This document shows positions 23,506-25,991 of a DNA stretch of 40,449 nucleotides, in pieces. Position numbers and translations under genes: made by a program. Where the stretch lies: IMG/VR virus record IMGVR_UViG_3300032285_001185, positions 1 to 40,449 of that record. The stretch is one strand, 5' to 3'. Below the pieces are notes generated by a model. The model was not told the DNA's origin and did not search any database. It was given only the letters and a program-made list of their open reading frames with translations. Origin of the DNA: a virus. Numbering within the stretch: position 1 is the first letter of the stretch; each line of letters starts with the position of its first letter.

Positions 23506-24848
23506 GCTTTCAACTCCTCAAGGGCAATGTCCGAGATCGCGCGCTTGTCGCGCAACGCAGACCAAATCCGTTCGTCGATAGTCTTATTACAAATCAACAG
23601 GTAACACCATACCGGCTGCGTCTGCCCGCCCCGGTGCAGCCGCCCGACCGTCTGCTCGTAAAGTTCCAGCGACCACGGCAGCGACACGAACACGATCTTG
23701 TTACCGCCATGTTGCAGATTGAGGCCATGGCCCGCCGACTTGGGGTGAATCAGCAGCAGCTCGATCTGGTTCGCGTTCCAGCGTTCGATGGTGTTGGGAT
23801 CGTCAATCGTCTGGGCGTGCGGGAACCGGCGGCGCAGTTCGGCCAGCTCCTCTTTGTAATTGTACACGACGATGGTGTTGGCCCGCTGGTTCTCGTCCAA
23901 CAGTTCGGCCAGCCGGTCAAACTTGTGGCCGCTAATCCAGATCGCGCGTTTGTCCACGTCGAACTTGCCCGGCCTGTCGCTGGCGGTTGACGTGCTGTGG
24001 TAGACGAACCCAGACGCCATCTGCTGAAGCTTGCTCGTCACGGCGGCGGCGTTGGCCGCGATGACCTGATCCGATCCCAGCTCCAGCATCAGATCGCGCT
24101 TCATAATGTTGTAGGGTTTGATGTCGGCCATGTCGCACGCCAGCTCGACCGTATGCAGCGGCGGCAGCTTGTCGGCGTACACGCCAGGCTCCAGCACAAA
24201 CGTGGCGGGCTTGATCGTCGCCATGATTTGCTCCAGCGATCCCTTGCGGGGCGACCACTCGCCAAAATCGCGGTTGATGCAGACGAAGTACCGTTGCAGG
24301 AACGCGCCCTTGGACCGGCCCAGCAGCGACTGGTCCACGATCTTGCATTGCCCGAACACGTCTTCCAGACCGTTGGACGTGAACGAGCCGGTCAAGCCCC
24401 AGCGGTAGCGCACGCCCTTCAAGAGCTTCTCCAACGCCTTAAACCGTTTGCCGCTGGGGTTCTTGACGCGCGTCAGCTCGTCGAACACCACGCCGTCGAA
24501 GCGGCGCATGTCAGCGTCCGTCAGTGTCTGGATGTTGTCGTAGTTCATGACAACCACGTTGGCGTCGGACGCCAGCGCAGCCGCCCGCTGCGCCGGTGTG
24601 CCGACCGCCAGCGCCATCGTCAGACCCGCCGCCCACTTGGGCCGCTCAACCGGCCACACGTCGGTGCAGACCCGCTTGGGCGCAAGGATGAGCCAGCGCC
24701 GGGCATAGCCGTCCAGCACCGCCGCCGCCAGCGCCGTGAGCGTGATGGCTGTCTTGCCCGCGCCGACCGGCGCGAGGATCATGGCGGTGTCATGCTCGAA
24801 CAGAAAGTCTGCGGCGTCGTCCTGGTACGGTCTAAGGCGCAACGTCAA
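23502..24848 (-). CDS. SNF2/DEAH-type helicase
   Basis: A 448-residue superfamily 2 ATPase. Motif I is APVGAGKTAIT (K32), motif II is VVFDELTRVKNP with DELT instead of DEAH (D123, E124), motif III is GLTGS, and motif VI is QTVGRLHRGGQT near residue 400. Such phage SNF2-like proteins remodel or translocate on DNA and often sit beside VRR-NUC nucleases, as here. The start is a TTG at 24848 with TAGGAG seven bases upstream, 17 bases inside the methyltransferase gene. A role in replication, recombination or repair is inferred; it could also act against host DNA. Confidence 0.9.
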   Translation of the reverse strand: MTLRLRPYQDDAADFLFEHDTAMILAPVGAGKTAITLTALAAAVLDGYARRWLILAPKRVCTDVWPVERPKWAAGLTMALAVGTPAQRAAALASDANVVVMNYDNIQTLTDADMRRFDGVVFDELTRVKNPSGKRFKALEKLLKGVRYRWGLTGSFTSNGLEDVFGQCKIVDQSLLGRSKGAFLQRYFVCINRDFGEWSPRKGSLEQIMATIKPATFVLEPGVYADKLPPLHTVELACDMADIKPYNIMKRDLMLELGSDQVIAANAAAVTSKLQQMASGFVYHSTSTASDRPGKFDVDKRAIWISGHKFDRLAELLDENQRANTIVVYNYKEELAELRRRFPHAQTIDDPNTIERWNANQIELLLIHPKSAGHGLNLQHGGNKIVFVSLPWSLELYEQTVGRLHRGGQTQPVWCYLLICNKTIDERIWSALRDKRAISDIALEELKA

Positions 24849-25716
24849 GGTACGCTCCTATGATTTCTGCCGCGACTTGCGGGACGATGGCATTGCCGTA
24901 GGCGCGCAGCTTTCCCACGCGGGCGGGAACCCCATGAGCCAGCAAACGAATGCTGGATTCAACGCGCCGCGCTTTTCCGTCTGCTCCAACGGCCCATCTA
25001 TGGCCGCGCCAGAACCCTGCGCCAACATTGACAACATCACTTGCTTGCCCATCGTCACCCGCCGTTGAATTGCCGGGTCTTCCCAACGCCCCCGGTCCCT
25101 GTCGTCCGACGAACAAGGCGTCGGCCACATCGCTGCCGCTGCGGCCTTCAGCCCCGGCATTGGCCCCCGTTTCGCATCCGGCGGGCGAGGCCCACCCGTC
25201 CCGTCCGACTTGACCGGCGTCGGCCACAAACCATAGGCGGTCTCTTCGATGGGGCGCATCGACGGCACAAGCCGGTACAACAACCGCCCCGCAGGCGTAG
25301 CCGATGCTTTCCAAATCGTCACACACTCCGTCGAGCCAATCCTTGCCAACCGCAGCCGCAACTTGTTCTCCCATGACGACAGGGGGCCGGACGGCACGGA
25401 TGAGACCGAAGAAGACGGGCCAGAGGTGGCGCTCGTCCGCCGTACCCTTTTGCCGACCGGCGGTGCTGAAGGGCTGGCAGGGGGCGCTTCCGGTCCACAA
25501 GGGGCGCTCGTCGGGCCATCCGGCGAGGCGGGCGGCGAGGCTCCAGCCGCCGATACCGGCGAAGAAGTGGCATTGTGTGAAACCGCGCAAGTCCGCAGAA
25601 TCCACGTCGAGAATAGACCGCTCATCAACTTCCCCTTTGGCTATCAAACCTTTGTCTATGAGGTTACGCAGCCACTGGGCGGCGTAAGGTTCCATCTCGT
25701 TGTAATACGCGCTCAC
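24832..25716 (-). CDS. C5-cytosine DNA methyltransferase
   Basis: A 294-residue DNA cytosine methyltransferase. Motif I is HFFAGIGGWSLAARLAG (SAM binding, about 50-66), motif IV is GSAPCQPFSTAG with catalytic Cys 80, and motif VI reads GEQV instead of the common ENV (E117). Motif VIII is HRRDRLWFVADA and motif X is AYGNAIVPQVAAEI. It probably methylates phage DNA to avoid host restriction. I chose the GTG at 25716 because it overlaps the VRR-NUC stop as GTGA, has GGGAG eight bases upstream, and gives the family's usual start SAYYNE; an ATG at 25737 is also open. The region after motif VIII is low complexity and also carries a second long frame (24858-25628). Confidence 0.92.
   Translation of the reverse strand: MSAYYNEMEPYAAQWLRNLIDKGLIAKGEVDERSILDVDSADLRGFTQCHFFAGIGGWSLAARLAGWPDERPLWTGSAPCQPFSTAGRQKGTADERHLWPVFFGLIRAVRPPVVMGEQVAAAVGKDWLDGVCDDLESIGYACGAVVVPACAVDAPHRRDRLWFVADAGQVGRDGWASPAGCETGANAGAEGRSGSDVADALFVGRQGPGALGRPGNSTAGDDGQASDVVNVGAGFWRGHRWAVGADGKARRVESSIRLLAHGVPARVGKLRAYGNAIVPQVAAEIIGAYLDVAP
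24858..25628 (-). other. Long second reading frame nested in the methyltransferase gene (possible overlapping gene)
   Basis: A 256-codon frame on the same strand as the methyltransferase, shifted by one base and wholly inside it. Its product looks protein-like in the second half: ECVTIWKASATPAGRLLYRL, GLWPTPVKSDGTGG, MWPTPCSSD, and the end GALNPAFVCWLMGFPPAWES followed by CAPTAMPSSRKS. From memory, phage proteins with exactly these elements (W K..ATPAGR, WPTP repeats, LNP..V.WLMG.P..W) exist and are deposited as separate hypothetical proteins near cytosine methyltransferases. The first 80 residues are Ser/Pro-rich and look like a shadow of the main frame. Where it would start is unclear. Treat it as a possible dual-coding region. 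Confidence 0.4.
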
Positions 25717-25991
25717 AGGCCCGTCTCCCGCGCCCATTCGTCAATCTCATGCCGCGACCACAGGCAGGCGTAATTCTGTTTTAGCGTCAGCATGTCGGTG
25801 GCGAACTTTGTTTGAAGCGGTGCCAGTCGCCCGCCCGGTTTCTTGAGTTCCACAAACCATGTTTGGCCGTTGGGCAGGCAAGCGATCTGATCCGACACGC
25901 CGTTTGACGTTGGTGATTTGAACTTGAACGTCGCGCCGCCCATGCGGCGGACCGTCCAGATGAAATACGCCTCAATTTCTTTCTCACGCAT
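25713..25991 (-). CDS. VRR-NUC nuclease
   Basis: A 92-residue stand-alone VRR-NUC domain of the PD-(D/E)XK group. The catalytic set is visible as GVSDQI (D34), WFVELKKPGG (E48, K50) and a Gln at position 60. Phage stand-alone VRR-NUC proteins cut branched DNA such as Holliday junctions or flaps, as known for family members. It is the first gene of the leftward nuclease-methyltransferase-helicase block. I chose the ATG at 25991, which gives the family's usual MREKEIE start; the frame is open further upstream into the divergent regulatory gap. The stop overlaps the methyltransferase start. Confidence 0.88.
   Translation of the reverse strand: MREKEIEAYFIWTVRRMGGATFKFKSPTSNGVSDQIACLPNGQTWFVELKKPGGRLAPLQTKFATDMLTLKQNYACLWSRHEIDEWARETGL

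Follow-up and report, generated by a model that had tools for sequence, protein, structure and literature searches.

What does a reading frame that stays open for 256 codons inside the gene of a C5-cytosine methyltransferase encode, and is it a gene at all? The question is raised by a stretch of 40,449 nucleotides corresponding to the virus record IMGVR_UViG_3300032285_001185 of IMG/VR (the window), in which genes for a helicase, a DUF2800/PD-(D/E)XK protein and a DNA polymerase A lie nearby. The methyltransferase ORF (alpha) occupies 24832..25737 on the minus strand and codes for 301 residues. The nested ORF (beta) is located on the same strand at 24858..25628, in the +1 frame of alpha; it opens with a TTG directly followed by an ATG at 25625, and its product thus counts 256 residues from the TTG or 255 from the ATG (24858..25625). 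An earlier note, made from the sequence alone, had given the same coordinates, register and length for this frame, and the elements that it had picked out in the translation, WPTP repeats (two motifs), TIWKASATPAGRLLYRLVPS and a final LNPAFVCWLMGFPPAW, are all present. As for alpha, the ATG at 25737 is probably not its true start; by inspection this is likely to be the GTG at 25716, which overlaps the stop codon of the upstream gene as GTGA. This overlap (25713-25716) suggests translational coupling between the two genes.

A trivial answer would be that the open frame is a shadow cast by a high G+C content and by the codon bias of the methyltransferase. The region is indeed G+C rich, and codon bias in a first frame can hold other frames open. 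We calculated the number of stops expected when synonymous codons are shuffled within each gene, which keeps the composition, in 140 distinct (non-redundant) relatives. Over the nested region, 73 stops were seen in the +1 frame, most of them at the region edges, whereas the shuffles still predict 411; the +2 frame, taken as a control, displayed no depletion (1356 stops for 1394 expected). For the window gene alone, shuffled versions contained 2.4 stops on average in the +1 frame and only 2% of them were equally open. Depletion was already strong at alpha residues 45-110 (11 stops against 89); the relatives had only 3 stops across residues 76-273, where about 341 were expected, and none of them had any across residues 111-252. 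Its borders are sharp and fall at the start and at the stop of beta, with no depletion upstream of the nested start (alpha residues 1-36, 302 stops against 222 expected) or past the nested end (residues 291-301, 128 against 53). The excess at 291-301 is the beta stop itself, and that at 1-36 is without explanation. Stops in close relatives, which would have refuted the nested gene, were not seen (none in loci L001-L004).

Two further observations go against a shadow. Forty-one canonical C5-methyltransferases from bacterial genomes showed no depletion (431 stops for 433 expected), and phages of Paenibacillus with a lower GC content (47-49%) retain the open frame (P = 0.001 or less). The frame is also kept in distant relatives, found in phages of Mycobacterium, Microcystis and Vibrio. 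The synonymous shuffles, the +2 frame and the canonical methyltransferases led us to reject the codon-bias shadow, to which we attach practically no credence, and we regard it as good as certain that the overlap is coding and that the nested frame is a real gene. Stop counts taken over HMM envelopes told us nothing, as these extend beyond the gene ends. By such a count, two loci from insect-symbiont genomes (L223 and L225) contain 1-2 stops in the methyltransferase frame over the nested region and are possibly decaying prophage copies.

If beta is a gene, its protein should leave a mark on the way this DNA evolves. Substitutions were sorted by their effect in both frames for 65 independent pairs, which gave for beta an NN/NS ratio of 0.23 (95% 0.20-0.27) and an SN/SS ratio of 0.41 (0.35-0.51), and for alpha an NN/SN ratio of 0.11. 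Purifying selection acts on both frames, and this analysis, together with the depletion of stops, supports the proposal of the earlier note that this DNA is functional in both frames. Within the recognition region, the constraint on beta even exceeds that on alpha (0.18/0.16 for beta against 0.41/0.36 for alpha). Strong constraint on beta is confined to alpha residues 111-290; in its first third, amino acids are neutral (0.94, 1.23), yet the frame is almost stop-free. We have no explanation for a translation start so far upstream of the selected part, beta residues 1-74 (25404-25625) being stop-free but neutral.

Synonymous codons at conserved alpha positions are frozen where beta needs them. 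To illustrate this, V126 is encoded by GTT in 136/136 sequences (27% expected), A267 by GCT in 118/118 (18% expected), H268 by CAT, which yields a Met in beta, in 90/90 (33% expected), and V274 by GTG, which yields a Trp in beta, in 128/128 (19% expected); G269 is GGG in 135/136. These expectations (18-33%) were drawn from the codon usage of each gene, and only conserved alpha positions were considered. The mean excess of the majority codon reaches 0.32 within the overlap against 0.12 on each flank. We did not rely on a pairwise BLOSUM test with codon shuffles: the +1 frame scored above the +2 frame (z 5.7 vs 3.9), but the latter was raised too, an effect of the frozen third positions of alpha on the two frames.

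How would beta be produced? A ribosome-binding-site-like sequence, AAAGGGGA (25631..25638, minus strand), precedes the ATG at 25625 by 5 bases and lies within alpha. An internal ATG in the +1 frame with such a site is found in 117 of 134 genes, for 36.9 expected, and this conservation points to independent initiation of beta. One could also imagine a programmed +1 frameshift that joins beta to alpha in a single fusion protein, in which case beta would have no start of its own. Selection on beta amino acids only from about alpha residue 111 on is what a late frameshift would permit. However, the strong depletion of stops at residues 45-110 and the conserved ATG with its ribosome-binding site both argue against this hypothesis, and we hold it to be quite improbable.

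The earlier note had also referred to stand-alone phage proteins of this type encoded beside methyltransferases. We found homologues of the nested frame in 215 phage records, and it sits in the same +1 register inside a methyltransferase in 161 of 162 sequences (160 loci of viral contigs and the two window copies). When loci were fetched with the methyltransferase alone as bait, the nested frame was found in 79/80 and is also open in the remaining one (L147). No free-standing beta was detected in more than 330 loci from phages, viral contigs and bacterial genomes: each match has a methyltransferase in its -1 frame, and this part of the note is not supported. The overlap is near-universal in a large family of orphan phage methyltransferases, including those of coliphages and of phages of Paenibacillus, cyanobacteria and Mycobacterium.

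The impression of stand-alone proteins arises because some records list a single frame or name the nested one after the enzyme. Most records annotate one of the two proteins: only beta is annotated in Cr-LKS3 and JC01, other records list only alpha, and both frames appear in K1ind2 (as 'Mte8-like'), Pagassa, Lily (as 'g62 internal gene') and PhiXhv-28. The record of phage Riah lists no gene at the locus, although the methyltransferase frame is open there. Two protein families labelled 'DNA methyltransferase', PHROG 1008 and PHROG 31772, are in fact the nested +1 frame and not the catalytic protein: 100/100 aligned beta members match phrog_1008 and 99/100 match phrog_31772, and phrog_1008 falls at the nested place in 12/12 phages checked.

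To learn what beta may do, it is useful to consider what alpha has and what it lacks. Alpha matches PF00145 (E=3.8e-18) and phrog_363 (E=2.9e-78), and its model aligns with M.HhaI over 169 residues (Z 14.9, rmsd 3.0). It meets the criteria of a C5-methyltransferase by its PF00145 domain, its motif IV PCQPFS with the catalytic Cys (25465..25482) and its motif X GNAIVPQ (24877..24897), the latter identified from the alignment of relatives and from canonical motifs. P86, C87 and Q88 of motif IV as well as G281, N282 and A283 are invariant in 75 relatives. Motif I, CHFFAGIGGWS (25540..25572), was recognized by comparison with canonical motifs and by inspection. The motif order of alpha is rearranged (II, III, I, IV ... 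X): motifs II-III (YYNEMEPYA...DERSILDV, 25593..25710) stand ahead of motif I, hhalign matching residues 10-50 to canonical motifs II-III and residues 49-75 to motif I, and the structural alignment begins at M.HhaI residue 34. At residues 123-126 (25360-25371), the canonical ENV of motif VI reads G-E-Q-V throughout the family, with G123, E124, Q125 and V126 invariant; the overlap may force part of this invariance, V126 being always GTT.

The catalytic core and the motif X helix of alpha are confidently predicted, whereas residues 181-240 (25018..25197), whose DNA is shared with the WPTP cassettes of beta, and residues 266-281 have a pLDDT <50, the former being predicted disordered. The earlier note had placed the overlap in a low-complexity part of the enzyme; this part is covered, but so is the conserved catalytic part. 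No match to motif IX was found in the alpha C-terminus, where the canonical matrix scores -10.7 bits on average. Alpha does not meet the criterion of a single-chain C5-methyltransferase, which carries both motif IX and a structured domain for recognition on one polypeptide.

Beta alone folds poorly, with a mean pLDDT of 60 and most of the protein predicted disordered. Its only well-predicted part covers residues 82-122 (25260..25382), a helix-strand-strand element with the consensus SSWESRLRxRLxxxGSTExxLTWKxxxTPAGR, for which AlphaFold2 means over 10-residue blocks mostly range from 70 to 90 and drop to 66 at the end; the corresponding segment, 111-172, is under strong selection. Sequence searches of Pfam, NCBIfam and the PDB with beta returned nothing convincing, and none of 100 members matched a nuclease family. 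When the beta model was used for fold searches, the PDB gave only weak matches (Z 2.2), and the best matches in a viral library include proteins named methyltransferase, probably nested-frame relatives; the model being poor, neither result was interpreted.

A clue came from a motif IX matrix built from 23 canonical motif IX blocks. In 96/100 beta proteins, the best site of this matrix is the LNPxFVxWLMGFP block, which in the window is LNPAFVCWLMGFPPAW (24915..24962) and contains the frozen codons V274, A267, H268 and G269. At this site the matrix scores +6.0 bits on average in the tested subset, against -5.0 for 500 permuted matrices (sd 1.2, maximum -0.6), hence p about 0.002, the lowest value that 500 permutations can give. 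Because the beta block does not retain the R-E...R residues that are invariant in canonical motif IX, we call it 'motif-IX-like'. Whole-profile comparison of beta with canonical C5-methyltransferases by hhalign was not significant (E 0.03-0.08): the match fell on motif IX with a small canonical set (E 0.075) and elsewhere with a larger one (E 0.034). In view of this inconsistency, only the block-level matrix test was used. With Dcm as bait, the relatives were not distant enough for building a profile.

Between the helix-strand-strand part and the motif-IX-like block, beta contains WPTP cassettes of about 30-55 residues each, 1-5 per protein; 8/227 beta proteins have none by the pattern used. 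The window has two. Cassette 1, WPTPVKSDGTGGPRPPDAKRGPMPGLKAAAAAM (25128..25226), is found again in loci with alpha catalytic parts only 60-62% alike, the cassette being 71-74% identical in beta against 26-32% in alpha; cassette 2, WPTPCSSDDRDRGRWEDPAIQRRVTMGKQ... (24963..25127), is 62% identical to that of locus L324 in beta against 15% in alpha. More generally, among loci with alpha catalytic parts at most 65% identical, recurring cassettes occupy a different ordinal position in 642/954 pairs, with an identity of 0.75 in beta, 0.50 in alpha and 0.50 in the unused third frame.

These pairs had been picked on beta similarity, and for this reason the comparison was repeated with pairs chosen on nucleotide similarity, now by codon position, a third-position check of the kind that the earlier note had called for. 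Over alpha residues 1-173, identities at codon positions 1, 2 and 3 are 0.78, 0.81 and 0.53, and the fast position is the third of the methyltransferase. In the recognition region they are 0.61, 0.83 and 0.87, and the fast position is the third of beta; the DNA there therefore evolves mainly as a beta coding sequence. The cassettes behave like target-recognition domains, DNA recognition itself being inferred and not shown.

We propose that beta is the second, specificity-bearing subunit of a two-polypeptide C5-methyltransferase, a reading to which we give a probability of about 0.7; the heteromer, the specificity role and the requirement for methylation are all inferred. Alpha would be the catalytic subunit, with the catalytic motifs and motif X, without motif IX and with a disordered recognition region. 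Beta, translated one base out of step from the internal ATG with its own ribosome-binding site, would bind alpha and supply the motif IX part of the small domain together with the WPTP cassettes as target-recognition modules. Shuffling of these cassettes between phages would change or add DNA specificities, the presumed purpose being to hide phage DNA from host restriction. We also lean, with somewhat less assurance, towards the idea that the DNA-recognition domain has moved wholly to the overlapping frame. Beta, with its tandem cassettes, would then be a specificity subunit that can be exchanged, what alpha reads from this DNA would be a passenger linker, and the stretch would evolve under the codon phase of the hidden gene. 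There is no experimental evidence that beta is produced or that it binds alpha, and heteromer formation, recognition by the cassettes and the anti-restriction role remain inferences. Against a subunit stand the missing R-E...R residues, the non-significant whole-profile comparison, the poor folding of beta alone and the placing of the recognition domain of M.EcoHK31I, a known two-polypeptide enzyme, in its large subunit.

On the other hand, the nested protein could be real and fulfill a separate job (e.g. in anti-restriction, regulation or toxicity), merely sharing the methyltransferase DNA. Its predicted disorder, the absence of a database fold and its neutral N-terminal third would fit such a role. 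Such a protein would nevertheless have to account for the fact that beta never occurs without the methyltransferase in the more than 330 loci, that its motif-IX-like block is found exactly where alpha has none, and that its cassettes are shuffled in a manner typical of recognition domains. We consider a separate job unlikely, without dismissing it. Were the recognition domain indeed housed wholly in beta, a single sequence would encode a catalytic and a specificity subunit in two of its frames, and this throughout a very large family of phages. With beta as the specificity subunit, half of the enzyme would escape one-frame annotation, database labels and the cloning of a codon-optimised alpha alone; this could be why some phage methyltransferases seem inactive or seem to have too short a recognition domain. 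The family also lends itself to the study, in a natural setting, of how recognition modules can be exchanged without closing either reading frame. To our knowledge, overlaps of such length with clear two-frame selection have rarely been documented in double-stranded DNA phages.

Our literature searches found no account of this phage overlap, its near-universality, the nested-frame cassettes, the wrong-frame labels or the function of the nested frame. The nested frame itself is what databases list as PHROG 1008 and PHROG 31772, as the 'Mte8-like protein' of K1ind phages and, in phage Lily, as the 'g62 internal gene'. A closer parallel can be drawn with M.EcoHK31I, whose small-subunit gene, in work ascribed to Lee, Kam and Shaw in 1995, is reportedly likewise nested within the large-subunit gene in a different frame. 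In the family studied here, a small gene nested in the +1 frame is observed in 140 relatives. This C5-methyltransferase, which acts on YGGCCR, needs two polypeptides, the large one with motifs I-VIII and X and the small one with motif IX (PMC3404938). Likewise, the motif-IX-like block is in beta and there is none in alpha, although the invariant R-E...R is not kept. Unlike in M.EcoHK31I, where the large subunit is held to contain the recognition domain (PMC3404938), the recognition modules are apparently in beta, as 1-5 exchangeable cassettes; moreover, alpha has motifs II-III before motif I, and a large phage and prophage family takes the place of one restriction-modification system.

Other systems invite comparison with the pair described here in single features. 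As in M.AquI, a split C5-methyltransferase, the motifs of one enzyme are shared between two polypeptides; those of M.AquI are consecutive pieces with motifs IX-X in the small subunit, whereas here the genes are nested and motif X stays in the large one. The multispecific enzymes of the Bacillus phages SPR, phi3T, rho11 and H2 consist of one polypeptide read in one frame. According to literature cited in PMC8936443, these C5-methyltransferases carry several tandem target-recognition domains. Beta has 1-5 tandem, exchangeable cassettes, which lie here in a nested frame; they may be the counterpart of such domains, DNA recognition by them not having been shown. A phage DNA methylase with a protein hidden in a different frame is also known from the ShiLan element, an out-of-frame HNH endonuclease that is a mobile insertion (PMC11855218). 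Beta, in contrast, did not arrive as an insertion; it extends across the catalytic domain and has no match to any nuclease family. Altogether, the nested two-subunit arrangement has a described precedent, to which these phage enzymes add cassettes in beta and a family-wide overlap, neither of which we found described in the literature.
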